From the NCBI GenBank assembly GCA_013791855.1, contig VMTA01000023.1, positions 62,001 through 126,000 of the forward strand: 64,000 bases of DNA, in the 5' to 3' direction. Position 1 is the stretch's first letter, and every line of letters starts with the position of its first letter. The DNA is from Sideroxydans sp. (GTDB lineage: Bacteria > Pseudomonadota > Gammaproteobacteria > Burkholderiales > Gallionellaceae). Both the position numbers and the translations under genes were made by a program. This document shows positions 43,905 to 59,101 of this stretch, one piece after another. The notes under the pieces were generated by a model. That model was not told the origin of the DNA. It was given only the letters and a program-made list of their open reading frames with translations, and did no database searches.

Positions 43905-44801
43905 TCACTTACGTGTGCTTTGCTTTTTTGCCGCTGCTTGGGTCGCCTCAATGAAACGGTCGAGATGGATCCATGCATCTTTCAACACGGTCTCCTCGTA
44001 GATACTTCTAAATTTTCCTACATTTGATTTTGCCATGGCGAGCGATTTCGGCGTGCCATCCATCGTTACCCCCCAGTCTGGAGGATAGGAATAGTTGGAA
44101 GTGTTTTCCTTCCAGTAATCCGTCACAATGATCGATACGGGACACCCGCATAACAGTGCTTCGGTAACTAGTGCAGTTGGCTCGTATACGTAGAGTACTT
44201 TTGCGCATCGCAGCAATGCCGCGATTTCGTGGTGTGTCAGTTGTTGATCCTTGCACAGACTGACTGCATCGGCCAGATGCTCATCAACTACGCCGCCTTT
44301 GCTCAGATATTTATGTGCGTAAAAGCATACGAATTCGCGGGAATCATCGTGGTGATTGTCGTCATTGTTGAATATCGAGAGATCACAAGTCGGGATGTGC
44401 AATATATCTCCCGTCATGCCTGACGGGAGATAGCTTGGGTCATATGCGAAGATCATCTCCTGCGGCGGGAAGCTCGTGTCTCCAGCGATGTGTCCGGGCC
44501 GATTCAGTAGCCAGCGCGCTACTACACCGCCGGCGGCGAGTGGGTCTCCTGAGATGATCTCCGGGTAAACTACGATCGGCTTTCTGCAGGAAATATGGTG
44601 ATGGTGCAGCGCATTTTCGCTCAGCTCTGGGGTTCGGAGTTGCGGGGAAGTGCCCTCGCAAGTTACATAGGCCTCCAGACCGCTCTCGTTGAGTGCGTGG
44701 CAAAGATAGTGCAGTGCGCGAATGCCCGCCGACTGCTGGATATAGTCCAAGGCACATATGTAGTAGGGCGCATGGTCGGAGGTGTAGAAGCTGCGTGTCA
44801 T
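43905..44801 (-). CDS. Putative GT-B type glycosyltransferase
   Basis: A 298-residue protein, last in the leftward glycan run. I do not recognise the exact family. The end of the donor-binding region, LYVYEPTALVTEALLCGCPV near residues 205-225, resembles the E-x-E motif region of GT4/GT1 glycosyltransferases; the N-terminal SAGIRALHYLCHALNESGLE fits an acceptor-domain start. The short length suggests a reduced enzyme. Starts 22 nt after the radical SAM gene. Confidence 0.6.
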   Translation of the reverse strand: MTRSFYTSDHAPYYICALDYIQQSAGIRALHYLCHALNESGLEAYVTCEGTSPQLRTPELSENALHHHHISCRKPIVVYPEIISGDPLAAGGVVARWLLNRPGHIAGDTSFPPQEMIFAYDPSYLPSGMTGDILHIPTCDLSIFNNDDNHHDDSREFVCFYAHKYLSKGGVVDEHLADAVSLCKDQQLTHHEIAALLRCAKVLYVYEPTALVTEALLCGCPVSIIVTDYWKENTSNYSYPPDWGVTMDGTPKSLAMAKSNVGKFRSIYEETVLKDAWIHLDRFIEATQAAAKKQSTRK

Positions 44802-44823
44802 GTCTGCCTTTCACGGAGTGATT

Positions 44824-46620
44824 TCATATCCTGCCCAAATAGAACTCGGCGTGGGTGTCATCGATCTTTGCTGTCTGCGGCAAATAGATGCTGGTGATGC
44901 CGGGGAATGCCGCAAGCTGGCGCAAGATTTCTTCTTTTCTGCGGACGACGGTGAGGATCGCCGTGCCGACGTTGTGCTCCGAGATATAAGAGGGCGGGAA
45001 TATTTGCTTGCCGCAGACCGAATATCCCTGTCGGGACTTCGAGCTGTCAACGACGATGAATTTCTCGTTTTGAAAAGCGGGATATTGATCAAGCAGCTTG
45101 ATGCATAGTTCGCCGGCTCCCCACAAGATCACACGCTCGTATTGCTCAAAGTCATTGTCGGGCAACTGCCGGTGTGCAATTTTTTTGAACGGATCAAGAT
45201 AATAACGTTGTTTGCATTTCCGGCAGGTCGTGCGATGGATGTGCATGTTGTCCGTTTTGACGGATGAGACATGCCCGCACCGGTTGCAGATCATGCTGAT
45301 CGTGCAGTTGCCGTCATCCTGGATGTTGTTGATTTCCATCGCATGCGGCTCGTATTTTGCCCGCATGTTTCTTTCATACAGATTGGAAGAGAGGTCTCTG
45401 TATTCCTGATCTGACAGATTGGAAACGTTTATGAGCGGGCAGCCGTCGGTCAGGAATTTGACGCGATCCTTGAGGATGCCGCGGGTGATGGCATTGTTGT
45501 ACAGCCCGGTGCCCGGGAATATGTTAATCATGTTTAGTTCCAGACCGTAATGGATGTTCTCGTCGTACCACTTCAACGAGTTGTTCACCGTTTCCATCGT
45601 TTCTGCTGCATCGCCGAATATCAGCCCACCCTGAATGTCGATGCCTGCCGCATAGGTCAACTCCAGTGCACGATCGATTTGCGCGCGCGTGATCTTCTTG
45701 GCCATGCTGAACAATATCCTGTCGTCGGCGCTCTCGATGCCGTAGCTGATGGTGACGCAGCCCGAGTCGCGCATGATGTTCAGCATCTCTTCATCGACAT
45801 CGCACACCCGAAGTTGCACCGACCAACTAATCTTGTATTTGGCGATGCGCTTGCAGAACTCAATCACACGATCTCTTTTGGGCGCGAACAACTCATCGCT
45901 GACAATCAGGGCTTTTGGATGGTATGTGTCGACGAGGTAGTCGATTTCCTGAAAGATATTGTCGAGCGAACGTTTGCGGTATTTATCTCCGGACGGATGG
46001 AAGCAGAAGGTGCATTTCAGTGGACAGGATCTGCTGGCGATGATGTAGGCCGCATCATAGTTGATTTGCCGCATGTACTTGGGGAACGAGAACCCGTCGT
46101 AATCCGGGAACGGCAGGTCATCGAGATTCTTGACCTCCTGTCTGGGGCTGGTGGTGATGTAGCGCACGCCCGATTTGAAGATCAGCCCGGGAATCTCCTC
46201 ATAGGAGAGGTTGTTGTCGAGCGCAGTGGCCAATTCATGCATGGTAATCTCGCCCTGTCCAATCACGCCGATATCGGCTTTCAGGGCGATCATCGCCGGC
46301 ATCGGGTCGCCGCTGATGATGCCACCGCCAAGGACAATACGAAGCTCGGGCTTGATCGAGCGCGCAGTATCGATCAGCGCTTTCAGCATCATGTAATCCC
46401 GGCTCAAGCCGGAAGTGCCAAGCACGTCGATAGCGTGGGTCTCAATCAGATGCCGCAAGGCGTCGTGTGTGGATTCTTTGAAAAACTCCAGATTGGCGGT
46501 GAAAACGCTGTGGCCTTTGGATTTGAGGTAGGCTGAAACGTAGGCGATGCCGACCGGGAAAACGTTATATCCGCCGGATGATTTGGCCGAATCCTTGGGT
46601 AGTACCAGTAAATAGTTCAT
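44824..46620 (-). CDS. B12-binding radical SAM protein with C-terminal Zn-ribbon and Rossmann module
   Basis: Multi-domain protein of 598 residues. Residues 1-150 form a B12-binding-like fold (GIAYVSAYLKSKGHSV; LGGGIISGDP; IGQGEITMHEL), with no DxHxxG motif seen, so cobalamin may bind base-off or not at all. A radical SAM barrel follows with CPLKCTFC (C199, C203, C206). Near 445-469 a CNRC...CRKC zinc-ribbon pattern appears, and from about 497 a Rossmann-like module starts with ILWGAGELC. The reaction is unknown; B12-radical SAM enzymes often methylate or rearrange unactivated carbons. Confidence 0.75.
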   Translation of the reverse strand: MNYLLVLPKDSAKSSGGYNVFPVGIAYVSAYLKSKGHSVFTANLEFFKESTHDALRHLIETHAIDVLGTSGLSRDYMMLKALIDTARSIKPELRIVLGGGIISGDPMPAMIALKADIGVIGQGEITMHELATALDNNLSYEEIPGLIFKSGVRYITTSPRQEVKNLDDLPFPDYDGFSFPKYMRQINYDAAYIIASRSCPLKCTFCFHPSGDKYRKRSLDNIFQEIDYLVDTYHPKALIVSDELFAPKRDRVIEFCKRIAKYKISWSVQLRVCDVDEEMLNIMRDSGCVTISYGIESADDRILFSMAKKITRAQIDRALELTYAAGIDIQGGLIFGDAAETMETVNNSLKWYDENIHYGLELNMINIFPGTGLYNNAITRGILKDRVKFLTDGCPLINVSNLSDQEYRDLSSNLYERNMRAKYEPHAMEINNIQDDGNCTISMICNRCGHVSSVKTDNMHIHRTTCRKCKQRYYLDPFKKIAHRQLPDNDFEQYERVILWGAGELCIKLLDQYPAFQNEKFIVVDSSKSRQGYSVCGKQIFPPSYISEHNVGTAILTVVRRKEEILRQLAAFPGITSIYLPQTAKIDDTHAEFYLGRI

Positions 46621-46652
46621 GCAGCGTTCCTGATCGATGGATTAAGACTGGG

Positions 46653-48170
46653 TCAAATTGCTCGGCACTCTATGCTGCTCGGCGGCGCCGAGTATGAAAC
46701 GCTGCGCAAGGCCAGATTGGCCTGGTTTGTAAGCGCGGCCAGGATTTTCGGCCTAGTTTTTCCTTGCGTGGTCGGATACCAGTAGTCGTGCAACATCCGG
46801 AAGGTATCGTCGGTGACGATACCGGGAAAGATGGCTTGGCCAAGATGCAGATAGCGCAGCGCCGTGGCTTCTTCGTTTTGCAGCAGGAAGCGCGCACAGT
46901 AACGTAGGCAGAGTCTGCCGACTTTCTCCGTAGCTTCTCCCAGCCTGCCGGCAGCCTTGGTCAGACCGTGCGCGCCGGCAATCTCCGCGAGCTGGTGCAG
47001 CAATACATATTGTCCGGTGCATTGCATCAGGTTGGCATCGATGGCGGCACCGTCGCTGCCGCCGTGTACGCGATTCAGCAACAGCGGCTCTTTGATGTAG
47101 ACCACAGGGTGGTCGAGGCAAAGGGTGAAGTCCAGCACGCGGGCGCCGAACCAGCGGGTATTGAAGCCGGCAGCTAGATCTTTTACCTGCGTCCTTTCGC
47201 GGTTGTAGAGTATCTGGGAGATGCTCGGATTTACGGCGGCCATCATATAGACGGCGGCTTGCTCTTCGCCGGGGATGAGGCAGGTCCGGTCATAGAACGG
47301 AGGCTCTTCGGTAACGCACCCCGCCTCATCGATGATGCTGCGGTGAACCATGGCAAATGCGGCATCTGGGTGACGCTCGAGCAGCGTCACGCAGCGTTCG
47401 ACGAAGTCAGGCTGCATCGCATCGTCGCTGCATAGCATAAGCATATATTTGCCCTGATTGTGGATCAGGCAATTGATCAGGTTTCGCGACGCGCCTAGGT
47501 TCTTGCGGTTGCGCGTCATGCTCATCCTGTGCGGATAGTGGCGGGAGAACTCCAGCGCGATCTGCCAGGATTCGTCCGAGGACGCATTGTCTGAAAAACA
47601 TATCTCGATGTTGCCGTAGGTCTGTGCAGCGATGCTGTCGAGACACTGCCGCAGGTAAGCTCCGTAGTTGTAGTTGTGGACATTGATGCTCACCAGCGGG
47701 TTGTCGGTGCGTTTCAATTCCGGCGACGGCTTCCCGTTCCAGTTTCCTAGGGGGCGGTGATCCTTCACCTTGCCAATATAGGCGTGGATCAGCAACGGAT
47801 CCGCCTCAAGTCTGGGAATGACGCTTTGGATATAGGTCGCATCGAACTTCCTGTCTCTGGTCAGCACGACGTAATATTTTCCTCCCGCCATCTGTATCGA
47901 CTTGTCGGAATTTCCGGCCGCGTTCATGGGGAGCTGGTTGCGGTTCAGCGTGATGCGATCCGGATGTCTTGCCATCCATGCATTGGCTATCTCCCATGAG
48001 CCATCAGAGGTGGCGTTATCGCAGATGATGACTTCAAAACCCCCGATCCGGTTTTGGCAGAAGATAGCTTCGAGGCAGTGCGCGAGCGCATCGTGATCAT
48101 AATCGTGGATGACGATGGAAAGGAGCGAGGGTTTTGCAGCTTGGCTATCGGTAGCGATGTGCGCGTTCAT
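46653..48170 (-). CDS. Tandem GT2 glycosyltransferase, first domain degenerate
   Basis: A 505-residue protein with two GT2 (GT-A fold) regions. The second (about 159-300) is complete: SINVHNYNYGAYLRQCLDSI, SDNASSDESW and the metal-binding CSDDAMQ at 247-253. The first (about 15-130) has IVIHDYDHDALAHCLEAIFC and CDNATSDGSW, but TRDRK stands where the acidic DxD-like motif should be, so it is probably not catalytic. A helical C-terminal extension of about 150 residues follows. Gap to the upstream GT2 gene is 9 nt. Confidence 0.82.
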   Translation of the reverse strand: MNAHIATDSQAAKPSLLSIVIHDYDHDALAHCLEAIFCQNRIGGFEVIICDNATSDGSWEIANAWMARHPDRITLNRNQLPMNAAGNSDKSIQMAGGKYYVVLTRDRKFDATYIQSVIPRLEADPLLIHAYIGKVKDHRPLGNWNGKPSPELKRTDNPLVSINVHNYNYGAYLRQCLDSIAAQTYGNIEICFSDNASSDESWQIALEFSRHYPHRMSMTRNRKNLGASRNLINCLIHNQGKYMLMLCSDDAMQPDFVERCVTLLERHPDAAFAMVHRSIIDEAGCVTEEPPFYDRTCLIPGEEQAAVYMMAAVNPSISQILYNRERTQVKDLAAGFNTRWFGARVLDFTLCLDHPVVYIKEPLLLNRVHGGSDGAAIDANLMQCTGQYVLLHQLAEIAGAHGLTKAAGRLGEATEKVGRLCLRYCARFLLQNEEATALRYLHLGQAIFPGIVTDDTFRMLHDYWYPTTQGKTRPKILAALTNQANLALRSVSYSAPPSSIECRAI

Positions 48171-48179
48171 GATTGATAT

Positions 48180-49619
48180 TTAAGGTTGCATTGGGATGGT
48201 ATTGCCGGACGGAAGAGAGGCGTCTTGTCGGAAGCCCGCGGCAGCCAGCTCCTTCCACGAGTAAATCTGAAATGACCGACGCTCTTGGGCGGGCGACAGG
48301 ATCTTGCGTAGACCCTCGTCGTGGTCGCGCTCACTGCTCAATATCACCGCATCAAGCAGTCCGCCCAGATCGAGCAGATACTCGTGGGATACGACGGGGA
48401 TGCCGAAAACATCCTTGCCGATCCGTGCGGGACTGGAGTCCAGGCAATACACAACTTCTATGCCGCATCGCTTAGCGGCCAATACCAGCAGATAGGCCGT
48501 CAGCATGCTGCCCAGTATGGCAATACGTTTCAATCCCCTCGCGCCGGCGAACAGCGAGCTTCCGCTATGGAGCAAGCTGGCCCATTGGCGATAGGCGAGT
48601 TGGCTGCCGCCCGTGGCGGGAGCTCGCATCAAGCGGTCGAGTGCATCGTCGGGGATGCTCAATCCCTTTCCCGTCTCGCCGAGCAGTATCTCGAACGGGA
48701 GCGCGGCATCAACGCTACGGTTGTCCGGCTTCACGGCGTGTTCCCAGTGTGTCTTCAATTTCATCAGCGCGGAATCAAGCGGCGCGCCTGCTGATTTGAA
48801 CAAATGATCCTGCGCCTGATAGCGTGCCGAGAAAGCATGGACGGTCGGTGCCAGCGCGCGTAACCGTTGGTCAGAATCGGGGGCTGCGAGCAGGCTTTCG
48901 GCGTATTTTGCCAGCGCCACGAGAGGGGCGCTCTGATCGACATTGCGCGATTCCTGGGCAGCGTGTTGCCGATAACGTAACAACGGTTCGGCAAGGATGG
49001 CTACCTGCGCATGCATATTCATGTTGAACATGCCGGCGATGTCGCCGCTGGGGGCGTAGGTCGGACTTGCTTCGCAGGCGAAGGAGCTGTTCCGTGATGA
49101 ACTGATGTCGCGGTTGAAAAGCAGGGTAGGGGTGGGGAACCATAGTTTCTCTTCGAAGTAGGTTTGGATGTAATCGCCGATCCCGAAGAAACGGTCGGTC
49201 TTCATTTCGTAGAGTTTTTGCTGCAGGATGTCGCCGCGCTCGTCGATTAGGCTGACATTTGTGGCCAGGCAACCCAGTTCAGGATGCTCTTCCATGATGC
49301 GCATCTGTCGGGCGATCATGGTTGGCTCCATTATGTCGTCGTCATGGGTGGTTAGCAGATATCTTCCCCTGCTTGCACCAAATGCGCGCCGGATACTATC
49401 TGCCGGGGTCCCGCCGGGAGGCAGGCGCATGTATGTCAGACGCGGATCTTTGCAGGACAGGACGATCTCTGGTGTCTCATCAGTGCTGTGGTTGTCGATG
49501 ACCAGCAACTCGAAGTCGCCATAGGTCTGGGCAAGGATGGCTTCCAGTGCGGCGCGTAGATAGCCGCTGCTGCCGCGGTTATAAGTTTGCAGGGAGACGC
49601 TGAGCTGTATCGAACTCAT
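48180..49619 (-). CDS. GT2 glycosyltransferase with C-terminal Rossmann-like module
   Basis: A 479-residue protein. The N-terminal GT2 domain (about 1-250) shows SVSLQTYNRGSSGYLRAALE, VIDNHSTDETPE and the metal-binding THDDDIM. A helical linker follows, and from about residue 365 a Rossmann-like segment starts with RIAILGS and has CLDSSPARIGKDVFGIPVVS, similar to modules in the radical SAM and methyltransferase proteins of the same cluster. Its start lies 29 nt after the upstream gene. Confidence 0.8.
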   Translation of the reverse strand: MSSIQLSVSLQTYNRGSSGYLRAALEAILAQTYGDFELLVIDNHSTDETPEIVLSCKDPRLTYMRLPPGGTPADSIRRAFGASRGRYLLTTHDDDIMEPTMIARQMRIMEEHPELGCLATNVSLIDERGDILQQKLYEMKTDRFFGIGDYIQTYFEEKLWFPTPTLLFNRDISSSRNSSFACEASPTYAPSGDIAGMFNMNMHAQVAILAEPLLRYRQHAAQESRNVDQSAPLVALAKYAESLLAAPDSDQRLRALAPTVHAFSARYQAQDHLFKSAGAPLDSALMKLKTHWEHAVKPDNRSVDAALPFEILLGETGKGLSIPDDALDRLMRAPATGGSQLAYRQWASLLHSGSSLFAGARGLKRIAILGSMLTAYLLVLAAKRCGIEVVYCLDSSPARIGKDVFGIPVVSHEYLLDLGGLLDAVILSSERDHDEGLRKILSPAQERRSFQIYSWKELAAAGFRQDASLPSGNTIPMQP

Positions 49620-49648
49620 GGCATTAATCTGTGCTGGTCATCGCGGGG

Positions 49649-50476
49649 TCAATTCACATTGCGGCATGGCCATTTTCCCCGGTTCGTTCTGAACGGCAGC
49701 CGCCGGATCCATAGCAGGAAGTATAGTAGCCCTCTGGCTTCCGCGTGGAGGCGGCGCTCAGTGTCGTGGAAATCGCGCCTTGCCGCATCACTGCTTATCG
49801 CGGGATGGGCCTGTGCCCCTCTGTAACGATACAAATAGCCGATGCTCCCAAGATAGGCAAAGCGACGGGAGTTCATGATCTTCAATGCGCTCCAACGATC
49901 TTCCAGGCAGTGTTCCTCGATATACCGGCCGAACTTGAGAAATTTCCTCCTGCGTCCGAACAGTCGCGACCAGATCACGCTCCAGTTGAACAACATGTTC
50001 AGCAAGGCGAACAGCCGCAGGGACAACAATCCCGACATGAATGGACCGGCTGCACGCTGTTTAATGGGACGGCCCTCCATATCGATGATGGTGCAGTTAA
50101 CGAACAGGAAATCGACATCGGTATGGGCGAGCAGATAATCCCGCTGCATATCGACGGCATCGCCTGGCAACATGTCATCGGAAGCGAGCAGGGTGATGAA
50201 CTCTCCCGTTGCCGCCTCGATCATGGTATTCAGGCTGGCCGTGATCCCTCTGTTGGACTTTCCGGCGAACAGGCTGGTACGTCGGAACTTGCTTCCGTGA
50301 CGGGCTAGCCAGTCGCTGGCAACCTGCACCGAGCGGTCGGATGATGCGTCATCGGAGATGATCAGTTCGATCTTGCTGCAATCCGAGGCGAGCAGACTGT
50401 CCAGCGTCTCACCGATGAACCGCTCATGGTTATACAGGGGGATCAGGACCGAGGTGACGCCGACGAGCTCTTGCAT
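49649..50476 (-). CDS. GT2 family glycosyltransferase
   Basis: Single-domain GT2 enzyme of 275 residues: SVLIPLYNHERFIGETLDSL at the N-terminus, SDDASSDRSVQVASDWLA, and the metal-binding ASDDMLPGDAV. A hydrophobic, basic stretch near 150-180 suggests membrane association. It follows the epimerase gene by 2 nt and probably adds a sugar to a lipid-linked glycan or protein; donor and acceptor are unknown. Confidence 0.85.
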   Translation of the reverse strand: MQELVGVTSVLIPLYNHERFIGETLDSLLASDCSKIELIISDDASSDRSVQVASDWLARHGSKFRRTSLFAGKSNRGITASLNTMIEAATGEFITLLASDDMLPGDAVDMQRDYLLAHTDVDFLFVNCTIIDMEGRPIKQRAAGPFMSGLLSLRLFALLNMLFNWSVIWSRLFGRRRKFLKFGRYIEEHCLEDRWSALKIMNSRRFAYLGSIGYLYRYRGAQAHPAISSDAARRDFHDTERRLHAEARGLLYFLLWIRRLPFRTNRGKWPCRNVN

Positions 50477-50478
50477 GG

Positions 50479-51552
50479 TCAGCGGGCGGAAGAGGCGGAT
50501 GGGGGGAGGGGGGCGGCGTGTGCGGCCGTCCGGCGGATAGCCGCGGACAGACAGGTCCAGCCATCCAGTCCCAGCTCCTTGCGTGCTTTGTTGATGTCCG
50601 GCACATAACGGTTGCGTATCGGGTTGCCGACGTTCTGGTTCTTCAGTCCCAGTATGTTTACGATCTTGCCGGAGCTCACGATATCCCTGACCAGACGGGC
50701 CAGCTCTCCGATGCTGATCTCTTGATCAGACCCGACGTTGTATATTTGTCCGTTGCGGCCTTGTAGCAGCAAGGTCAACAACCAAGTCACCAGATCGCCA
50801 AGGTAGAGGTAACTGCGGAGCGACGTGCCGTCGCCCTTCACCATGATCTCCTCCTCGTGCAGTGCCTGATGGATGAAGTTGCCGATCGCATAATGAAGAT
50901 CGAGTGGCATGAACGGCCCGGCAAATGAGAAGCAGCGTGCGATGGTGTTGTTCCAGCCATGCTTGTGCGCATAGTAAGTGGAAAGGTACTCGGCAGCGCG
51001 TTTGGCTTGTCCCAGCGAGGTATCAACATCGCTGGTGTCCGGTGCCCCCTGATAGCTTTCAGGGATGTGCGACATGTCTGCCGGCTGGGTGCCATAAGCC
51101 ACACCTGAACTGAGGAACAAAAAACGCTCGACTTCGCATTGCACTGCGAAGTCGAGCACGCGGCGCGTGCCGTCTACCAGCGTATCGAACTTGCGCAGCG
51201 AATCTTCGCCGTTAAAGGTCTCGCTCGCTGAGGTGGTGGCACCGTGGATGAGATAGTCGAAATATCCCTGCGGAAATTCAAAGTCACGCACATCGCCGCT
51301 GTGCAAAGTGAGCATCACATCTGAAGCCAGGTGCGGGGCTTGCCGGGTGAAGGCTTCGGCATCGCGCGTCAGTACGGTGACGTGCAGATCGAGGTCGAGC
51401 TCACGGTTCGCATGGCACAGCGCTTCCAGTAGCCAGCGGCCGAACAATCCGGTGCCGCCGGTGAGGAATAGCGAACGACCGCGCAGCATTTCCCACAATG
51501 CGGGCGAACGTTGCAGGATGTTCGCGAGGTCTTGCGCCAGCACGTCGCTCAT
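50479..51552 (-). CDS. NAD-dependent epimerase/dehydratase-like protein lacking the catalytic Tyr
   Basis: Extended-SDR nucleotide-sugar enzyme of 357 residues. The dinucleotide-binding TGGTGLFGRWLLEAL is at 31-45 and the SSGVAYG strand at 148-154. Where YxxxK is expected the sequence reads LGQAKRAAE (L180...K184): Lys is kept but Tyr is replaced by Leu (codon CTG). The substrate-binding half has IARCFSFAGPFMPLDLH and SYLYLGDLVTWLL. Normal redox catalysis is doubtful unless another residue acts as acid/base. Overlaps the HAD gene by 4 nt. Confidence 0.82.
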   Translation of the reverse strand: MSDVLAQDLANILQRSPALWEMLRGRSLFLTGGTGLFGRWLLEALCHANRELDLDLHVTVLTRDAEAFTRQAPHLASDVMLTLHSGDVRDFEFPQGYFDYLIHGATTSASETFNGEDSLRKFDTLVDGTRRVLDFAVQCEVERFLFLSSGVAYGTQPADMSHIPESYQGAPDTSDVDTSLGQAKRAAEYLSTYYAHKHGWNNTIARCFSFAGPFMPLDLHYAIGNFIHQALHEEEIMVKGDGTSLRSYLYLGDLVTWLLTLLLQGRNGQIYNVGSDQEISIGELARLVRDIVSSGKIVNILGLKNQNVGNPIRNRYVPDINKARKELGLDGWTCLSAAIRRTAAHAAPLPPSASSAR

Positions 51553-52202
51553 GACGGCAGCTCCTCCGCCAGCAGATCAAGCGGCTGCGCAAGCCAATGC
51601 CATTCGGTCGGTAGCGTGTCCGTAGTGAGATCGCCGTAGCCCCAAGCTGCGTAATGGAAACGCAGACCGTTCGCGCTGGCAGCCGCACCATCTTCCGTTT
51701 TGTCGCCGATATAGCGGGCGCTATTCGCTGGCAGCGCCAGTTCTGCGAGCTGCTTTTGCAGCAAAGCCGCTTTGCCGGGCAAGCGTGGCGCCACCATGTC
51801 CAGCGCGTACACCGTGCTGAAATAGTGTTTCCATCCAAGGTGATCGAGGATGGCCTGTGTGGCGGAGAAACGTTTATTCGTGGCGATGTGCAGCACGAGT
51901 CCGTCTGCCGATAATCGTTGCAGCAGTTGCTCGACACCGGCATAAGCGTGCGTGTTGGCCACGCCGTCGCGGTCGTAATGCGCCTTGAAACGCTCGGTCA
52001 GCAACTGAATCAATGCCGGGTCATCGCTGCCGCTGATGCGGGCCAGTGTCTCGGCCAGCGGCGGGCCGATCAGACGGTCATCCAGTGCGACTTGCGGGCT
52101 GAGGCCTGTCTCAGCCAGTGCGGCGGCAAAGGCCTCCAGGATAGCGGGAGCGGAATCGATCAGGGTGCCGTCGAAATCGAAGATCCAGTGCCTGATACGC
52201 AT
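51549..52202 (-). CDS. HAD-superfamily phosphatase
   Basis: Gph/PGP-type phosphatase of 217 residues. Motif I is FDFDGTLIDS (nucleophile D9, acid/base D11), motif II THATNKR-like in LVLHIATNKRFSATQAILDH, and motif IV YIGDKTEDGAAASANGL. A helical cap lies between. In this cluster it may dephosphorylate a sugar phosphate, by analogy with nonulosonate pathways; generic phosphoglycolate phosphatase is the alternative. Confidence 0.87.
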   Translation of the reverse strand: MRIRHWIFDFDGTLIDSAPAILEAFAAALAETGLSPQVALDDRLIGPPLAETLARISGSDDPALIQLLTERFKAHYDRDGVANTHAYAGVEQLLQRLSADGLVLHIATNKRFSATQAILDHLGWKHYFSTVYALDMVAPRLPGKAALLQKQLAELALPANSARYIGDKTEDGAAASANGLRFHYAAWGYGDLTTDTLPTEWHWLAQPLDLLAEELPS

Positions 52203-52205
52203 CGT

Positions 52206-52988
52206 TCAACCCAGCACGGTCAGGCCGCTGTTCCAGTATTCGGCGGCTTGCCCGAAATGCGGGCGACGGTTGAAAGTGAGGTTATAGCCATAGGCTTCGT
52301 AGTAATAGCCTACCAGCGGCTTCTCCGCCTGCACGGCAGCCAGCCAGAGCAGCGGCGGATAGCCGTCTGTGCGCTGCAGCAGACCCGGGGTGCCGACCAG
52401 CGCAGCGCTGGTGTCATAGCCCCCCGCCAGCAGAAACTGTTCCGGCAACGCTTGCACCCGCTCTAGGGCGGCGGGCAGCGAATACTCTGACAAACAAGGG
52501 AAATAACAGCCCACCACCGGCCCCTGCTGCATGGCCTGCAGCAAACGCTCGTGGCGCGAACCGGGGGCGATGCCAAGCTGGCCGGCCATCACATTCTTGT
52601 TGTGGTCGGTAAAGCTGTATTGCGGGAACGCCTGAGCAAAAGCGTGCGCCACTGCCGGGATGTAGCGCTGACTCAATGCCTCGCCGTAGTCTGCATGTTC
52701 GGCCCGGGGTAACAGGAACGGCACGGCCACGCCTTTAGAGATGCCATGCGTCCGCGAATCTGCACGCAACGCATGCATCAGGTTCTCGCAGCGTCGGGCA
52801 AACTCATCTACCAAGATGCCGCTGCCTCCCAGATGTTCAGTCGAGCGCGCGTGGATGGCGGCGTAATCGATCTGTGGCGTGGTGATCCCGAAGTAGCGGC
52901 GGCTCTGTGCAAGCGCAGGCGCGTTGAGGTTCGCAGGCATGCAGCGGCCATGTTCGTCGAAAAGAGGGGGGAGTTCATTGAGGTTCAT
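52206..52988 (-). CDS. Uncharacterised protein of the glycan cluster
   Basis: A 260-residue protein I do not recognise. The start is the ATG at 52988 (MNLNELPPLFDEHGRCMP); the frame is open upstream, but there it shadows the radical SAM gene. It has no signal peptide or membrane helix. Notable features are the DHNKNVMAGQLG segment, VVGCYFPCLSEYSLPAALE and the aromatic-rich C-terminus GYYYEAYGYNLTFNRRPHFG. It lies 5 nt after the radical SAM gene and 3 nt before the HAD gene, so it is very likely co-expressed and part of the pathway. Confidence 0.7.
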   Translation of the reverse strand: MNLNELPPLFDEHGRCMPANLNAPALAQSRRYFGITTPQIDYAAIHARSTEHLGGSGILVDEFARRCENLMHALRADSRTHGISKGVAVPFLLPRAEHADYGEALSQRYIPAVAHAFAQAFPQYSFTDHNKNVMAGQLGIAPGSRHERLLQAMQQGPVVGCYFPCLSEYSLPAALERVQALPEQFLLAGGYDTSAALVGTPGLLQRTDGYPPLLWLAAVQAEKPLVGYYYEAYGYNLTFNRRPHFGQAAEYWNSGLTVLG

Positions 52989-52993
52989 GGCGG

Positions 52994-54109
52994 TCAATCG
53001 GTGAGAGTGTCGGTGTCCGAGAAGCCCTGTCCCCAGGGCACGGGCAAGTGCGTGACGCCACGGGTCTTTTCGGTGTGGAGTTTGATGAACTTCGGGTCTT
53101 CGCCGATGATGCAGTCTGGCCGGTAAGGGCCCAACCATGGATTGCGCATGCCGCGCGCGAGGACTTCTTTCAGCGATGTCTCGCGCAGGTTGCCGAGCGA
53201 AAAATCGATGTAAGGGCAGGGGGTGACTTCAAAAGTGGAGGTCACGGTGATGATGCCCTTGACCGTGATGCATCCTTTGAACGAGCCGTAAGTCGGCGTC
53301 ATGTGGGTGAATACGTTGTAGTCTTTTTCCAGCTCGCGCAGGATGTCTGCATCTTCCTTCTCGATGACGAACTCGGGATGCTCGGTGCAGGAGCCGGTGG
53401 GCTTTGCGTAAGAGACATACAGGCCGACGTTGCGCTCGGTGGCGAACCTGCACATATCGAGGAATTCGGGCGACTTGGCGCGCCCCTTGATCAGCACGGT
53501 GGACAACAGCAGGTTGAGACCGGCATTCAGCGAGGCATCGATGGCGCGCATCACCTTCTTGTAGGAGCCGGGCTTGTTGCGGAAGGCATCGTGGTCCGCT
53601 TCGATCATGCTGTCCAGCGACAACTGCACCTTTTCCACGCCGATGGATTTGAGGTGTCTGGCTTTGGCGTCATCGAGGAACCAGCCGTTGGTGTCGGTGA
53701 TGACATAATGCTTATCCGGATCAATGGCTTCCACCACGGCATCGAAGTCCTTCATCACCAGCGGTTCGCCGCCGGTGATGACGAAGCGGGCCAGTCCCAG
53801 TTCGTCGGCCTGTCGCGACAGTTCGCGGATGTCGTCGAGATCTATCTTGCGTCGTGCGTCCTTGATCTTGAACACCTTCTTCTGGTGACGATCCATGTAG
53901 TATTCGGCGGAACAGTGGGTGCACTGGAAGTTGCACAGGTAGCTCTTCTCCAGCCGAATGATGGGGCTGATTTCGCCGCGTTCTTCCATCTCGGTGATCG
54001 CCGCGAGCTTGTCGGCCACATAGTGTTTGCGCGCGCGCAGACCTTCACGCTTGGCCAGTTCGGCGGGGGTGAGCTTGTTGGGCTGGGTGTCTTGGGCCAT
54101 GGTTGTCAT
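52994..54109 (-). CDS. Radical SAM protein with SPASM-like C-terminus
   Basis: A 371-residue radical SAM enzyme. The 4Fe-4S motif CNFQCTHC is at 59-66, followed by FVITGGEPLVMKDFDAVVEA (GGEPL, SAM-binding) and later KVQLSLDSMIEADHD. The C-terminal third, with CPYIDFSLGNLRETSLKEVL, resembles SPASM/Twitch regions. The substrate is unknown; neighbours suggest a sugar or sugar-linked intermediate. It overlaps the Nudix gene by 4 nt. Confidence 0.82.
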   Translation of the reverse strand: MTTMAQDTQPNKLTPAELAKREGLRARKHYVADKLAAITEMEERGEISPIIRLEKSYLCNFQCTHCSAEYYMDRHQKKVFKIKDARRKIDLDDIRELSRQADELGLARFVITGGEPLVMKDFDAVVEAIDPDKHYVITDTNGWFLDDAKARHLKSIGVEKVQLSLDSMIEADHDAFRNKPGSYKKVMRAIDASLNAGLNLLLSTVLIKGRAKSPEFLDMCRFATERNVGLYVSYAKPTGSCTEHPEFVIEKEDADILRELEKDYNVFTHMTPTYGSFKGCITVKGIITVTSTFEVTPCPYIDFSLGNLRETSLKEVLARGMRNPWLGPYRPDCIIGEDPKFIKLHTEKTRGVTHLPVPWGQGFSDTDTLTD

Positions 54110-54618
54110 GATGCTGTTCCTTCAATGTACTTGCGAAACACCCGTTGCGGGGCGATCAGATCCTGCGGGCAGGTGTCGTGCCAGGCCCATGCGCCGTGGC
54201 GAGGTGTGCCGGATTCGTGGGCGAGATGCGGTGCCAGCGGTCCGATCAGTCTGCATTCGTATAGTAGCGAGATGAAATGTCCGCGCGTGTCACGTCCCTG
54301 ATTCATCATTTCGGTGATGGTCAGCGGTGTTTCGTTGAATTCGACGGTGGTGCCCAGTTCTGTCTCTGCCACTTTATTTATCCGTTGTGCTGCCGTTTCC
54401 TTGAAGCGGATGATGCCGCCGGGTATATGCCAGACGGGGCCATAAAATCTGTCTTCCCGCCATGTCAATAACGTCCGGTTTGCGGAATCCTTTAGCAGCA
54501 GGTCGACATTGACCATGGGCGTGAGGCGGGTAACGAGATCGAACACCGCTTCCGACAAGCCCTGCTTCGGGTCTGCGATGCGCGCTTCAAGTGCTGTGAT
54601 CAGTTCCTTAAGCTCCAT
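54106..54618 (-). CDS. Nudix hydrolase, GDP-mannose mannosyl hydrolase-like
   Basis: A 170-residue Nudix protein from the ATG at 54618 (MELKELITALEARI), which has a GGAG site; a further ATG at 54639 has none. The Nudix box near 67-90 (GGIIRFKETAAQ ... KVAETELG) lacks the canonical RE and second Glu, a pattern known from GDP-mannose mannosyl hydrolases. Such enzymes release the sugar from GDP-sugars by C-O cleavage. It overlaps the methyltransferase gene by 11 nt and the radical SAM gene by 4 nt. Confidence 0.78.
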   Translation of the reverse strand: MELKELITALEARIADPKQGLSEAVFDLVTRLTPMVNVDLLLKDSANRTLLTWREDRFYGPVWHIPGGIIRFKETAAQRINKVAETELGTTVEFNETPLTITEMMNQGRDTRGHFISLLYECRLIGPLAPHLAHESGTPRHGAWAWHDTCPQDLIAPQRVFRKYIEGTAS

Positions 54619-55756
54619 GCGGCAGTATCTCCAGTCCATGCTCGCGCAGGATCGCCAGATGGAAGGTGTCTCCCCAGCGTTGGCGAATGGTGCGTGCTAC
54701 CTCGTCCGAATAACTGGCAGCCATGATGATGATCGCGCCCACAGGTTTTCGGTCCAGATGGTCTGGCGCCACGATGGGCAGATGCGTTGCCGGGGTGAAT
54801 TTATCCTGCTTGAAGGGGGCGGAGTCAACCACGTAGCGCACGCGGTCTGCCAGTTCGAGCAGGGCTATGGTCGCCAGCGCCTGGTGTCCTGCCCCCCAGA
54901 TGGCGACACCCTGCGCGGCATGTTGCCGGGTGTAGTCGTTTAGTGCCTGCTGCAAATTTTCGCGTGCCGCGCTGAATCCGGTAACGTCGCAACTGCGACG
55001 CTTGCGTACCACGGCGGACAGGATGTAGTCATGCCATACCGCTTCACATGTGACAATTTCGAAGCCGCTGATCTGCAGCAGGGTGGTCAAAGTGTCGCGT
55101 GTGAAATAGCAGATGTGGTCGCTGATGAATTCGGTGAATAACTTCTGCCGCAGGATCATATCGAAGTTGGGCACTTCTACCAGACCGATGCCGTCATCGC
55201 CAAGGTTGTGCGCGATGCCGCGCAGGCTGGCGCGCGGCTCGGGCCAGTGCTCGAGGAAGTTCAAGGTTGCGAAGACATCGAACGGCGCGGCTGTCAGTGT
55301 TTGTCGGGGCTGCTCGATGAAGCCGTGCTTGGCGCGTAACCCTTGTGCGAGACAAGTCTCTACCGCGGCTGTGTCATATTCCAGTCCATGCGCTTCCACG
55401 CCGGCTTCAGCGAACAGTGTGAGGTATTCGCCGCGCCCACAGCCGACCTCGAGCAGGCGTTTGCCATGCAAATCGTAGCGTTGCACGAAGTCGGCGAACT
55501 GCTGGCGGCGGAACGACTTCATCTCTTCCGAGAAGGCGGCGGCGCGTATCACTTCGCGATAATAGGGCACCGGCTCATGGGCAGTCTGCACCAGTCCGCA
55601 TGATGCGCATTGGAAGATGTCGAGATCTATGCCACTTTCATGTGAAAGCTGCGCGCGGTCTGGAAAGTGCTGGGCAGCGCCCGGCATGTTGCGGAATTGC
55701 AGCAGCGGTTGCGCTGGCAGAGCTTGGTCACACAGGCGGCATGCATGGCTAGACAT
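54608..55756 (-). CDS. TylCIII-like sugar C-methyltransferase family protein
   Basis: A 382-residue SAM-dependent methyltransferase. The N-terminal zinc-binding domain has CRLC (C6, C9) and CASC (C50, C53). The SAM-binding motif LLEVGCGRGEYL is near 101-112. The C-terminal domain from about 285 starts with IWGAGHQ and has VVDSAPFKQDKF, typical of nucleotide-sugar C-methyltransferases that branch deoxysugars (TylCIII family). Together with the ThDP enzyme this suggests a branched sugar. Gap to the upstream gene is 7 nt. Confidence 0.83.
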   Translation of the reverse strand: MSSHACRLCDQALPAQPLLQFRNMPGAAQHFPDRAQLSHESGIDLDIFQCASCGLVQTAHEPVPYYREVIRAAAFSEEMKSFRRQQFADFVQRYDLHGKRLLEVGCGRGEYLTLFAEAGVEAHGLEYDTAAVETCLAQGLRAKHGFIEQPRQTLTAAPFDVFATLNFLEHWPEPRASLRGIAHNLGDDGIGLVEVPNFDMILRQKLFTEFISDHICYFTRDTLTTLLQISGFEIVTCEAVWHDYILSAVVRKRRSCDVTGFSAARENLQQALNDYTRQHAAQGVAIWGAGHQALATIALLELADRVRYVVDSAPFKQDKFTPATHLPIVAPDHLDRKPVGAIIIMAASYSDEVARTIRQRWGDTFHLAILREHGLEILPHGA

Positions 55757-55763
55757 GCCGTAA

Positions 55764-57596
55764 TCAGTTCCTGCGTGCAGCCAGTGATGCTACAGACAAG
55801 CCAGATGGCATCTCGGCACGCAATTGTTCGAGCGGCAGTAGCGGCGACATGTCTTCCAGCGGCATGGACAGCATGCTGCCGTCGGGCTGTGGCAGCGCTG
55901 CAACCTTGGGCGTCAGCGCCTCGTCGGTGACTAGGCGCACATCCACCAGTAAGGGGCGCGGTTGCGCCATGGCCCACTGCAGCTTGTCATGCAGTTCAGC
56001 GGCATCGCTGATGCGCAGGAAGGGCAGGTCGTAGGTAGCGGCGATCTTTTCCAGATCGGGCAGCAGCAGTCCGGCTTCCGGTCCGGTACCGACGTAGCGT
56101 CCCTTGAAGTAGTTGCGCTGCGTGTTGCGGATGGAGGCATAGCCCTCATTGTTCAGGATGACCAGACAGATGGGCAGATTGAATGCTCTCATCGTTGCCA
56201 GTTCCTGGATGTTGAGTTGCAAGCTGCCGTCGCTCTCGATGGCGACCATGGGTTTGCGGTCGTTGGCGAAGCAGGCGCCGATGGCGGCGGGCAGGCCGTA
56301 GCCCATCGCGCCCAGACCGGAAGTCAGGAACACGCGTTGGCCCGGCTTGTTGCGGAACACGGTGTAGAAAGCTTCGACCGCCAGACCGGAACTGCCGGTG
56401 CTGACCAGCGTGTCGGCAGGGATGGCGTCCGACAGCGCATCCATCAGCTGGTAATGGCTGATGGGGCCGCTGGCAGGGAAAGGTGCGCCGTCGTTGACCG
56501 GATAGCGCAGCTTCCAGTCGGTGCAGCGCGTTTTCCAGTCAGACCAGTCGGGATGCTCCGGGATGGCGGATTTTTGCCACGCGCGCAGGAATGCTCCTGC
56601 ATCCGCCTCAATGGGGAGTGCGATGTCCATATCCAGCTTGTCGATCTCATTACGATCCACATCGACCATGATTTTTTGCGCGTTGCGTGCGAAGCCGCGC
56701 GGGTTGTAGGCGGTGATGATGTTGTCGAGGCGACTGCCGACGGCGATCAGCAGGTCGCAGTTCTGTATCGCAAAATTTGGCGCGCGCAGAGCGACCACGC
56801 CGGGACGGCCGACCAGCAGCGGATGGTCGTAGGGCAGCAGGTCGAGTGCATTCCAGGTGGTGACCACGGGGATGCCATGCTTCTCGGCCAGTTCGCGGAA
56901 CAGTTTGGCAGCACCGGACAGACGCACGCCGTGCCCTGCCAAAATCAGCGGGCGCTGAGCCTGACTGAGCAGGTGTTGTAGTTGTTCGATCTCACGGGTG
57001 AGCGTTGCAACGCTGGGACTTGGCACTGCCGCGCGCCAAGGTGGCAAGGATGCTGGATCGATGGGCGCGCCCTGTACGTCGAGCGGCACGTCGATCCACA
57101 CAGGCCCGGCGCGTCCGCTACGCGCAAGATAAGCGGCCTGTTCCATCACGCTGCGGATGTCTTCAGGGCGTTCTACCGTGATAGCGTATTTGGTGATGCC
57201 GCGCACCATGCCGATAATGTCGACCTCCTGCACGCCCTTCTGGCGCAGCGGTGCGCCGCGCAGCATGTCGGCGCGCTTCACCTGGCCGGAGATGACCATC
57301 ATGGGCACCGATTCGATCCAGGCGCCGGCGACCGCCGTGATGGCGTTGGTCGCGCCGGGACCGGTGGTGACCATGCACACACCGATGTTCTCGTTGATGC
57401 GTGCGTAGGCTTCGGCGGAAATGGCGGCAGCCTGTTCGTGCAGGCAGGCGACCGTTTCGATCTGCGGGCACTTGCCGACGGCATCCACCAGATGCATGGC
57501 TCCACCGCCGGGCAGCAGGAACACATGTCCGACGCCGAGCGAGGTTATGAAGTCGGCGATGTAGTCGGCGACGCGATACGGTTCTTGCACAGTCAT
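55764..57596 (-). CDS. ThDP-dependent acetolactate-synthase-like enzyme
   Basis: A 610-residue ThDP enzyme with the start at the ATG at 57596, overlapping the previous stop in TGATG. The PYR domain carries the catalytic Glu (E54 in CLHEQAA) and MVTTGPGATN; the PP domain has SDG (455-457) and ILNNEGY, the ThDP/Mg motif GDG-N24-NN with Ser for the first Gly. Homologues make acetolactate; YerE, in the same superfamily, attaches a two-carbon unit from pyruvate to a keto sugar. Its place in a sugar cluster favours the latter, by inference. Confidence 0.82.
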   Translation of the reverse strand: MTVQEPYRVADYIADFITSLGVGHVFLLPGGGAMHLVDAVGKCPQIETVACLHEQAAAISAEAYARINENIGVCMVTTGPGATNAITAVAGAWIESVPMMVISGQVKRADMLRGAPLRQKGVQEVDIIGMVRGITKYAITVERPEDIRSVMEQAAYLARSGRAGPVWIDVPLDVQGAPIDPASLPPWRAAVPSPSVATLTREIEQLQHLLSQAQRPLILAGHGVRLSGAAKLFRELAEKHGIPVVTTWNALDLLPYDHPLLVGRPGVVALRAPNFAIQNCDLLIAVGSRLDNIITAYNPRGFARNAQKIMVDVDRNEIDKLDMDIALPIEADAGAFLRAWQKSAIPEHPDWSDWKTRCTDWKLRYPVNDGAPFPASGPISHYQLMDALSDAIPADTLVSTGSSGLAVEAFYTVFRNKPGQRVFLTSGLGAMGYGLPAAIGACFANDRKPMVAIESDGSLQLNIQELATMRAFNLPICLVILNNEGYASIRNTQRNYFKGRYVGTGPEAGLLLPDLEKIAATYDLPFLRISDAAELHDKLQWAMAQPRPLLVDVRLVTDEALTPKVAALPQPDGSMLSMPLEDMSPLLPLEQLRAEMPSGLSVASLAARRN

Positions 57597-59101
57597 CAAT
57601 CCATCCAGTAGGTGAGCAGCGTCTTGCGCTGTTTGTTCTCCATGATCGCCGGATCGGTGTAGAACGAATCGTGCAGATTGTGGGTGGTCGATATCTCTTC
57701 GATCACCGCGCCTGTCTCGGTCTTGAACTTGTGGCGCACGCCGGGCTCGATGGTGACCACGTCGCCGGGCTTGCATAGCATGGGCTCATCATCCAGTTCC
57801 AGCAGGATCTCGCCGTGGATGATGTGGAAAGTCTCTTCTTTTTGTTTGTGGTATTGCTCGGGATGCATCTGTCCGGGCAGGCTGACCAGCAGTTTCTTGC
57901 AGTAGCCCCGGTTGACTACGGTTATAAGCACCAGTCCGACCTCGTCGAAACGGTCGATGCCGTAGTGGTGCGATATCTCCAGGTCGGCGCTGCCTGGCAC
58001 CACGATATTGTTGTGAGAGAGCATTTCCTTGACTTGCCGGGCGATGTCCCAGATGCGGGCGCGACGGTCGTTGCGCATGGCATTCTGGGGGGAGATTGCC
58101 GCATTCGCTGCGATGTCCATGGTTGCCGAGAACTCGATGTATTTTGAACAGTCGTTGGCGGTGAACTGCCCGTTTTCCGGAGGGAAGGCGAAATAGGTAT
58201 CCTGTTCGGTAAGCAGTTGCCCGGCCTTGAGGGAGTGGCGGGCGAACATGCCACGGCGCAGCGAGCGCAGACTGGCGGCTTCTTCAGGATTGGGAGGCAG
58301 TCTTCTATCGCCGATGCCGCACAGCGACCATGCGCGAAGCGCGGCCTGCAACCACGTGCGCACTTGTGCGGGAGAGGCGGAATAGGCGTTCAGCGGATAG
58401 CTTGCGGTCGGCAGGCCGACATGTTTTTCGAACAAAGTGATGCCTTTGGCGATCGCCATCTGCACGATGTCTGTGGCATCCGGATCCTCATGGGTGGAAA
58501 ACCCGATGCGCACGTTGGGATAGCGTGCGCGCAGGAAGTCTATCTGCGACAGGTGCATGTGTTCGTCAGGTGTCGGATATTCCCCGACGCAATGCATGAT
58601 CGCGAAATTCTTGCTGCGGTGTGCAAAGAAACTCACGACGCGGTCGATGTCTTCTACGCTGGCACCGGCAGTCGATGCAACGATGGGTTTATCGCACAGC
58701 GCGATGCGCTCCAGCAGTGGCCAGTCGGTGAACGAGCAGCTGGCGATCTTGATGAAGTCGAGATTTTGCTCCTCGATAGTACTCACCGAGACTTCGTCGA
58801 ACGGAGTCGACATGGTCAAAAATCCGTTGGCGCGCATCTCCTCCACCAGACGGTCGAATGCTTCGCGGGTCAATCGCGTCTCGGAGAAACGTTTGACGTA
58901 CTTGATGTCGTCTCGGCCTTGTGAGGAAGGATGGATGAAGGTGTCTAAGTCGCGATATTGCAGTTTGAAGGCAAAATGGAACGGTAATTCGCGGCAAACC
59001 GCGCCGAAAGCTCGAACCAACGCCAATCCATGATTGAGATCTCCCATATGGTTGTTGGCCATCTCCAATACGAAAAGTGGAGTTGGAATGGGTGCGGTCA
59101 T
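57596..59101 (-). CDS. NeuB-type PEP-condensing synthase fused to a cupin domain
   Basis: A 501-residue fusion. The NeuB barrel (about 1-270) has EMANNHMGDLNHGLALVRAF, AFKLQYRDLDTF, IKIASCSFTDWPLLERI, STAGASVEDIDRVV, HCVGEYPTP and FEKHVGL. A SAF-like segment (RRGMFARHSLKAGQLLTEQD) and a C-terminal cupin (about 375-500, with EETFHIIHGEILLELDDEP and VVTIEPGVRHKFKT) follow. The start at 59101 is chosen for its GGAGAG site; an in-frame ATG at 59197 adds 32 odd residues. NeuB enzymes join PEP to an amino sugar; the substrate here is unknown. First gene of the run. Confidence 0.84.
   Translation of the reverse strand: MTAPIPTPLFVLEMANNHMGDLNHGLALVRAFGAVCRELPFHFAFKLQYRDLDTFIHPSSQGRDDIKYVKRFSETRLTREAFDRLVEEMRANGFLTMSTPFDEVSVSTIEEQNLDFIKIASCSFTDWPLLERIALCDKPIVASTAGASVEDIDRVVSFFAHRSKNFAIMHCVGEYPTPDEHMHLSQIDFLRARYPNVRIGFSTHEDPDATDIVQMAIAKGITLFEKHVGLPTASYPLNAYSASPAQVRTWLQAALRAWSLCGIGDRRLPPNPEEAASLRSLRRGMFARHSLKAGQLLTEQDTYFAFPPENGQFTANDCSKYIEFSATMDIAANAAISPQNAMRNDRRARIWDIARQVKEMLSHNNIVVPGSADLEISHHYGIDRFDEVGLVLITVVNRGYCKKLLVSLPGQMHPEQYHKQKEETFHIIHGEILLELDDEPMLCKPGDVVTIEPGVRHKFKTETGAVIEEISTTHNLHDSFYTDPAIMENKQRKTLLTYWMD

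Follow-up and report, generated by a model that had tools for sequence, protein, structure and literature searches.

NeuB homologues are commonly read as a sign of sialic-acid-like sugars. In Shewanella oneidensis, the operon sfmABCDE, in which a gene with a NeuB domain is followed by a gene for a thiamine pyrophosphate (TPP) enzyme, is required for flagellin modification, and single deletions of the first four genes were non-motile on soft agar, with flagellins at the unmodified size (PMC3765264). In Caulobacter, pseudaminic acid is made with a NeuB whose Arg322 variant is inactive, and FlmG has N-terminal tetratricopeptide repeats (TPR) and a C-terminal glycosyltransferase part (PMC7591256). 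YerE-like enzymes sit in the superfamily of decarboxylases dependent on thiamine diphosphate (ThDP); YerE takes pyruvate and CDP-3,6-dideoxy-4-keto-glucose, and ErwE, for which pyruvate is not a substrate, favours 4-hydroxy-2-oxo acids (PMC12247030). JanthE, another YerE-like enzyme, couples 2-keto acids to ketones and accepts 4-hydroxy-2-oxovalerate (PMC12188165). We have analysed a window of 64,000 nucleotides (nt) from a Sideroxydans genome (contig VMTA01000023.1, G000:C12:62001-126000 in our numbering; genome of 2.55 Mb in 47 contigs), in which 13 consecutive minus-strand genes, from position 59101 down to 43905 in the list of open reading frames, begin with a NeuB-cupin gene and a ThDP-enzyme gene. 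This run is conserved and belongs to a modular sugar system of wider scope. It is probably an island for flagellin glycosylation in which branching is YerE-like and NeuB makes the donor, and to the full reading, in which a coupled NeuB-ThDP pair makes a long-branched CDP-sugar, we give a probability of about 0.5. What was observed directly is the gene content and its conservation, the co-occurrence of the pair, the flagellar setting, and keto-acid synthases of other kinds next to related ThDP genes.

The genes of the run, with domain calls from Pfam and NCBIfam scans of the window proteins, are as follows.

57596..59101, minus strand: g01, NeuB-type ulosonate synthase dependent on phosphoenolpyruvate (PEP), with a C-terminal cupin, 501 amino acids (aa) (NeuB PF03102, 6e-38; Cupin_2 PF07883, 2e-11; nearest solved chain 3g8r)
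55764..57596, minus strand: g02, YerE-like ThDP-dependent carboligase of three domains (TPP_enzyme N/M/C; nearest solved chain JanthE, 8rph)
54608..55756, minus strand: g03, sugar C-methyltransferase (Methyltransf_13/23/14; PF08421, PF13489, PF08484)
54106..54639, minus strand: g04, Nudix hydrolase (PF00293, 4.5e-6)
52994..54109, minus strand: g05, radical SAM/SPASM-type enzyme (PF04055, 2e-20; SPASM match weak)
52206..52988, minus strand: g06, 260-aa protein with no family assigned (no Pfam, NCBIfam or PDB match)
51549..52202, minus strand: g07, HAD phosphatase (HAD_2, 3.8e-28)
50479..51552, minus strand: g08, extended short-chain dehydrogenase/reductase (SDR) of epimerase/dehydratase fold, catalytic Tyr replaced by Leu (PF01370, 1e-31; motif alignment)
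49649..50476, minus strand: g09, GT2 glycosyltransferase (PF00535)
48180..49619, minus strand: g10, GT2 glycosyltransferase with a C-terminal extension (PF00535)
46653..48170, minus strand: g11, GT2 glycosyltransferase with two GT2 stretches (PF00535 twice)
44824..46620, minus strand: g12, B12-binding radical SAM protein (PF02310 and PF04055)
43905..44801, minus strand: g13, 298-aa protein with no family assigned (no Pfam or NCBIfam match)

At the 12 junctions, for the starts chosen, neighbouring genes overlap by up to 32 nt (g03/g04) or are separated by up to 32 nt (g11/g12), and inspection of the first junction showed that the start of the ThDP gene overlaps the stop of the NeuB gene. An earlier sequence-only reading of this stretch had described 13 tightly packed genes on one strand and had listed their enzyme types; the packing was borne out, all junctions lying within 32 nt, and the enzyme types were found by Pfam and NCBIfam. 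The one protein of unknown family in that reading is g06, to which g13 has to be added as a second. Its Nudix enzyme was found too, and the name GDP-mannose hydrolase given to g04 is weak because the corresponding model reaches 33 bits against a cut-off of 146. The label TylCIII-like for g03 is that of the earlier reading; the domains found are those of a C-methyltransferase.

The arrangement of the run exceeds chance, its core being conserved in other genomes and its first two genes co-occurring. Among 379 genomes of the order (NeuB searched with profile A2, E <= 1e-50), NeuB was found in 9, the ThDP enzyme in 16 and both in 8, with the two genes adjacent in 8/8; the hypergeometric P of 1.2e-11 (2.4e-10 without the window's genome) is a guide only, as the genomes are related. 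At the level of the class (369 genomes; NeuB by a single sequence at E <= 1e-30, ThDP by profile A1 at E <= 1e-150), NeuB was found in 7, the ThDP enzyme in 7 and both in 4, and within the genus NeuB was present in 6/34 genomes. From the 20 NeuB-positive genomes, 19 were examined and G176, with a NeuB match of 33% identity, was left out. Sixteen loci carry both genes, on the same strand in 16/16; the two lie no more than 51 nt apart in 14, the exceptions being G001 (2433 nt) and G368 (1237 nt). Locus counts here and below overstate the number of independent cases, as near-copy loci (G342/G235, G516/G681) are included. The core of the island is carried by two named metagenome-assembled genomes, one of Sideroxydans and one of Sulfuriferula. 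Among plasmid records, none covers 80% of NeuB, and in none of the 121 does a radical SAM match reach 60% identity. The sequence-only reading had proposed a search for conserved co-occurrence of the NeuB-cupin, the ThDP enzyme and the 260-residue protein; such co-occurrence was found for the first two, and g06, present in 8/16 NeuB-ThDP loci, lies outside the minimal core.

The ThDP enzyme g02 is of the YerE-like type. It matches JanthE, its nearest solved chain, with 414 bits vs 295 bits for the best acetolactate synthase, and the match spans the C-terminal LEDMSPLLP (LEDxSPL) to residue 601, whereas the other chains among the 60 listed stop by residue 576. The GDG cofactor motif is SDG in g02; JanthE has an unusual CDG at this place (PMC12188165).

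The NeuB enzyme of the island departs from the canonical ones. Against the NeuB and PseI equivalog models of NCBIfam, g01 scores 126.7 vs 399.65 bits and 115 vs 340.25 bits, respectively. In the family alignment, the catalytic Glu (Glu13 in g01) is kept in 18/19 members, with Asp in one, and both metal-type His are kept, whereas the column of the canonical active-site Arg in the SAF-type domain holds Phe, Ile or Met in 19/19 members and Arg in 3/3 canonical NeuB; in the proteins of G506 and L021, an Arg follows two or three positions after this column. As judged from these residues, the acceptor aldose of the NeuB-cupin probably differs from the canonical one and is not N-acetylated. The 19 NeuB loci divide into 16 with the ThDP gene and no NeuA and three with NeuA and no ThDP gene (Fisher 0.001). 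In the window and the 15 related NeuB-ThDP stretches, which differ in length between loci (5-64 kb), one NeuA query gave no match, and a laxer search likewise, whole genomes not being searched. RfbH-type (PseC-related) aminotransferase matches of the genome are all off the window's contig, and NeuC was not searched for. These results agree with the earlier statements that no NeuA-type or PseC-type gene is present and that the run differs from the standard routes to sialic, legionaminic or pseudaminic acid, the latter also in view of the scores far below the NCBIfam cut-offs and the missing canonical Arg. The HAD gene (g07 type, at least 90 bits) is found in 12/16 NeuB-ThDP loci vs 0/11 ThDP loci without island-type NeuB, with a more distant HAD gene (24% identity) in G731, and g07 is a candidate phosphatase for a phosphorylated NeuB product.

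The same genes might instead serve two sugars in one glycan, that is, an unusual but otherwise ordinary ulosonic acid made by NeuB and activated by a CMP-transferase encoded elsewhere, and a short-branched sugar of yersiniose type made by the ThDP enzyme from pyruvate, the substrate of YerE itself (PMC12247030). The NeuB-cupin relatives of G506, G287 and G339, which have a NeuA-type cytidylyltransferase gene next door and no ThDP gene, would fit this, as would a classical-looking RfbFGH-SDR-ThDP cluster in the same genome. We consider it rather unlikely, as NeuA was found in 0/16 of the NeuB-ThDP stretches searched, NeuB and ThDP genes are so tightly joined in 14/16 loci, and related ThDP enzymes have other keto-acid synthases beside them. 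At L015, L017 and L080 the NeuB-cupin gene adjoins a NeuA-type cytidylyltransferase gene without a ThDP gene, which suggests a separate CMP-sugar use of this synthase family there.

The neighbours of related ThDP genes point to the donor. The locus table holds 22 loci from two ThDP searches and five further NeuB-ThDP loci from the NeuB search in the genus. In 21/22 of the former, a keto-acid synthase gene lies on the ThDP strand within 6 kb: island-type NeuB in 11, other NeuB in three, 4-hydroxy-2-oxovalerate aldolase in three and HpcH-like aldolase in four, with none in one (G431); 0/8 control loci with RfbF/G/H and no island-type ThDP gene have any such synthase. The 4-hydroxy-2-oxovalerate aldolase and its acetaldehyde dehydrogenase are above both model cut-offs in G342 and were assigned by 56-89% identity at the other such loci, and the HpcH-like aldolase is just above the Pfam cut-off in G684 and was assigned by 46-58% identity elsewhere. 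In the ThDP tree, the 11 enzymes partnered with NeuB-cupin form one clade (100/100), and JanthE groups with the aldolase-partnered enzymes (100/100), with 57% identity to that of G342. Since JanthE clusters with these enzymes and accepts the product of that aldolase, the neighbouring synthase may be taken to supply the donor. Genes for 4-hydroxy-2-oxovalerate aldolase and acetaldehyde dehydrogenase were seen within CDP-sugar clusters near JanthE-like ThDP genes at L082:10546-12422, L126:10452-12352 and L122:5624-7505. A strict mutual exclusion of NeuB and HpcH-like aldolase was considered and dropped, as the contigs of G001 and G368 end near the ThDP gene.

Genes for a CDP-keto-sugar acceptor accompany the pair. 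RfbF and RfbH were found in 13/13 of the NeuB-ThDP genomes searched for them, and RfbG in stretches of the same 13; the search covered 13 of the 16 genomes, and G368, with a 5-kb contig and a genome 58% complete, was left out. Outside the 13, G731 has RfbH by the order search and G128 has RfbF/G/H in its stretch. As background, RfbH occurs in 14/34 genomes of the genus, including all six with NeuB (P = 0.002), and in 41/340 genomes of the order, a set that need not equal the 379 used for NeuB and ThDP. RfbF/G/H share a stretch with the NeuB-ThDP pair in 6/16 loci. In the window's genome, RfbF, RfbG and RfbH lie on another contig (C39), unlinked to the island, the corresponding family models being matched by the copies of G671. 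The claim of one unusual branched, NeuB-related sugar is largely supported, with the correction that the likely keto-sugar genes stand outside the run in this genome.

In the scheme that we propose, all substrates, the sequence of the steps, the use of the NeuB product as donor and the flagellin target are inferred. The NeuB-cupin enzyme would join PEP to an aldose that probably carries a phosphate and no N-acetyl group, forming a 4-hydroxy-2-keto acid, from which the HAD enzyme g07 would strip the phosphate. The YerE-like enzyme would then decarboxylate the keto acid and transfer the acyl group that results onto the keto group at C4 of CDP-3,6-dideoxy-4-ketoglucose, and the ligation product would be a CDP-sugar bearing a long branch with hydroxyl groups, tailored by the C-methyltransferase, the radical SAM protein g05 together with g06, and the altered SDR. 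The GT2 proteins would assemble the glycan, and g13 and a TPR-GT41 protein encoded next to the run would attach it to flagellin. A more specific form of this scheme is put forward tentatively, at somewhat less than even odds: NeuB makes the acyl donor for the YerE-like ligase and not a CMP-activated acid, most of an ulosonic acid, without its carboxylate, is grafted on a CDP-4-keto-sugar, the product is one branched higher sugar, possibly of 12-14 carbons, on flagellin, and in one sub-lineage a radical SAM enzyme and g06, as a new protein family, replace the usual ketoreductase chemistry. The donor coupling is the most interesting and the least proven part of the model.

Several points weigh against this scheme. 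Profile A1 was built from NeuB-adjacent ThDP proteins and so favours the retrieval of more such proteins, and the NeuA searches have the scope of the stretches given above. The calibration by JanthE comes from its sequence and reported substrate and not from its gene neighbourhood. Placed on the ThDP tree, the HpcH-like partner needs five changes, a number as low in 500/500 shuffles, and the cupin-less NeuB partner needs four, as low in 110/500; the distribution of these two partners is thus not that of ThDP ancestry, and a partner does not necessarily determine the donor. Two loci, those of G516 and G681 (same genus, near-identical ThDP enzymes), have NeuB 5.5 kb away, inside a gene cluster that by eye resembles an ordinary nonulosonate one, and these two are therefore weak cases among the 21. 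On contig C39 (L130:525-6964), a second cluster of the order RfbF-RfbG-RfbH-SDR-ThDP, in which the ThDP enzyme is more like acetolactate synthases and no keto-acid synthase was found, looks like an ordinary pyruvate-using, yersiniose-type branch pathway, which could compete for the CDP-sugar, share it, or even use it alone. Upstream of NeuB, inspected in 9 of the 16 loci, no sigma-54 signal was found, and the best sigma-28 score was equalled by at least 42/200 shuffles in each case. Finally, a putative sugar-phosphate cyclase, AroB-like, accompanies HpcH-like aldolase or NeuB in five ThDP loci, at the following places.

L079:1184-2263, AroB-like cyclase
L081:6652-7806, AroB-like cyclase
L124:3239-4390, AroB-like cyclase
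L078:9667-10812, AroB-like cyclase
L022:2129-3316, AroB-like cyclase

Because of these cyclases, the keto acid may be cyclised instead in the five loci, a hint that this pathway family has a carbocyclic branch as well.

Part of the island forms a sub-module. In g08, the Tyr of the YxxxK motif is replaced by Leu, which confirms the altered epimerase of the sequence-only reading. This replacement is found in exactly the eight loci that have g05 and g06, whereas 13/13 other aligned SDRs keep Tyr (a set that does not include YerF). The SDR expected to reduce the branch ketone is thus without its catalytic Tyr in eight loci including the window, which again counts against the scheme. The radical SAM gene g05 occurs in 8/16 NeuB-ThDP loci and g06 in the same eight, and g05 is 80-92% identical in the seven other loci that carry it. 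The ThDP enzyme of G030 is nested in the g05/g06 group of the tree, yet this locus has neither g05 nor g06, and its SDR is another one that keeps the Tyr. Because of the shared eight loci and the pattern of G030, the three genes seem to be gained and lost together, and our guess is that they take over or replace the reduction of the branch ketone. As an observation of its own, g05 is the most conserved of the proteins compared across G004, G505, G558, G594 and G671 (85-88% identity vs 73-79% for NeuB and 77-80% for ThDP). As a marker of the whole pathway, g06 was rejected, half of the NeuB-ThDP loci being without it; a sequence search of PDB with g06 was empty, and an AlphaFold2 model from three sequences has a mean pLDDT of 34.

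The surroundings of the run are flagellar, and two genes of the window bear on the likely target.

41412..43880, plus strand: TPR-GT41 (OGT/SPINDLY-like) transferase, downstream of the island and facing it (Glyco_transf_41, 6e-47, with TPRs)
30573..31289, minus strand: FliC flagellin (Flagellin_N and Flagellin_C)

The TPR-GT41 protein is a candidate flagellin O-glycosyltransferase, and FliC, encoded 13 kb from the island, is the likely acceptor protein. The window also has fliD, fliF, fliI, fliK-type and flhB-type genes, and an flgB-L operon at about 4.9-14.4 kb, recognised by eye from the sizes of the open reading frames, with a second Flagellin_N match on its last gene. Among the related loci, that of G220 lies between hook-associated genes (by eye) and two flagellins, those of G505 and G624 lie close to fliC, flaG and fliD, that of G006 lies between fliS/fliK and fliE, and that of G004 adjoins fliK and fliS; some of the names in these loci were given by similarity to genes assigned by eye.

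The closeness to flagellar genes might be incidental and the sugar destined for O-antigen or another surface polysaccharide, an alternative on the question of the target, compatible with the others. YerE-like sugars are found mainly in cell structures such as lipopolysaccharide, according to a review (PMC12247030), and flagellar genes are found in the fetched stretch of 8/16 NeuB-ThDP loci, the other eight (e.g., G128, G001, G731) having none in theirs, which also weighs against a flagellin target. We regard this destination as unlikely, because fliC and fliD are present together in the window and in the stretches of G008, G030, G505, G624 and G220, the loci of G006 and G004 lie among flagellar genes, and the neighbourhood of g13 and the TPR-GT41 gene is kept in nine loci (window, G008, G004, G030, G006, G505, G594, G558, G624).

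Compared by description, the island and the sfm operon have in common that NeuB adjoins a ThDP/TPP enzyme and that a methyltransferase is present, sfm also having a predicted reductase. They differ in that SfmA, of 290 aa, is too short for a cupin as in g01, that neither the short reductase SfmC (255 aa) nor the ATP-grasp protein SfmE was found among the 13 genes of the island (in which g06 and g13 match no family), and that the five-gene operon, as listed in the paper, has no radical SAM, HAD, Nudix or g06 gene, all of which the island has. The word "undescribed" in the sequence-only reading is too strong: the pair of NeuB and thiamine enzyme is published as sfmAB (PMC3765264) and the class of YerE-like branching is known (PMC12247030). 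The sfm-dependent flagellin glycan contains a part of 236-264 Da, given as C9H16O7 plus methyls, and a 274-Da part assigned to a nonulosonic acid (PMC3765264). By our arithmetic, C9H16O7 has no room for a carboxylic acid and is compatible with a decarboxylated NeuB product, and it proves nothing, because the 274-Da part is assigned to a nonulosonic acid. The same residue would also suit chain extension without branching, in which the ThDP enzyme would turn the NeuB product into an aldehyde by decarboxylation, the net result of the two enzymes being two added carbons and a 2-deoxy higher aldose; the place of YerE-like enzymes among ThDP decarboxylases (PMC12247030) is in line with such a reaction. 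This route appears quite improbable to us, since the nearest solved relative, JanthE, is a ketone ligase and the co-occurrence with RfbF/G/H would be superfluous.

As to the YerE-like carboligases (YerE, ErwE, JanthE, MMAR_2332), g02 is related in sequence to JanthE, including LEDxSPL, and CDP-ketosugar genes occur in the same clusters or genomes; the differences are that the apparent source of the donor in the island is a NeuB-type PEP synthase and that the motif is SDG vs CDG in JanthE. The yersiniose pathway, whose enzymes we take to be RfbF/G/H, YerE and YerF, is similar in that genes for CDP-3,6-dideoxy-4-ketoglucose are in the genome and a ThDP enzyme and an SDR are in one run, and it differs in that the island adds the NeuB-cupin, HAD and radical SAM proteins, has an SDR without the catalytic Tyr and is unlinked to RfbF/G/H. 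With Caulobacter (PMC7591256), the island shares a NeuB-type synthase and a TPR glycosyltransferase, the layout of FlmG being that of the TPR-GT41 protein, whose function is predicted. The Caulobacter system makes pseudaminic acid with a NeuB that needs Arg322, whereas in the island NeuB family the corresponding column lacks Arg, and a NeuA/PseF-type gene was not found next to the island NeuB. Genes for CDP-4-keto-6-deoxyglucose have been reported in flagellin islands of Erwinia and Pantoea (PMC13317340), and the main texts of papers on Aeromonas and Clostridium flagellin islands do not mention thiamine or acetolactate. In the literature searched, no link of NeuB to a YerE-like donor was found, and the novelty of the link is not established by this.

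Both enzyme types are known, and the chemistry proposed for the NeuB-ThDP pair, which is unproven, appears new to us. If the model is true, a whole NeuB subfamily has been misread: what it makes is an intermediate whose carboxylate is lost. The source of hydroxylated keto acid for YerE-like enzymes that make long branches would then be predictable from the neighbouring gene (NeuB, 4-hydroxy-2-oxovalerate aldolase or HpcH-like aldolase), which would help to predict unsolved branched sugars from genomes. The model also offers a hypothesis for the NeuB and thiamine-enzyme pair of Shewanella, for which the glycan structure is incomplete in PMC3765264.

As to the remaining parts of the window, a DegQ-like protease with trypsin and PDZ domains is encoded upstream of the island. 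The protein g13 is possibly a GT-B-like transferase, as judged by eye, and g12 belongs to the variable part of the island, with an 89% identical copy in G671.

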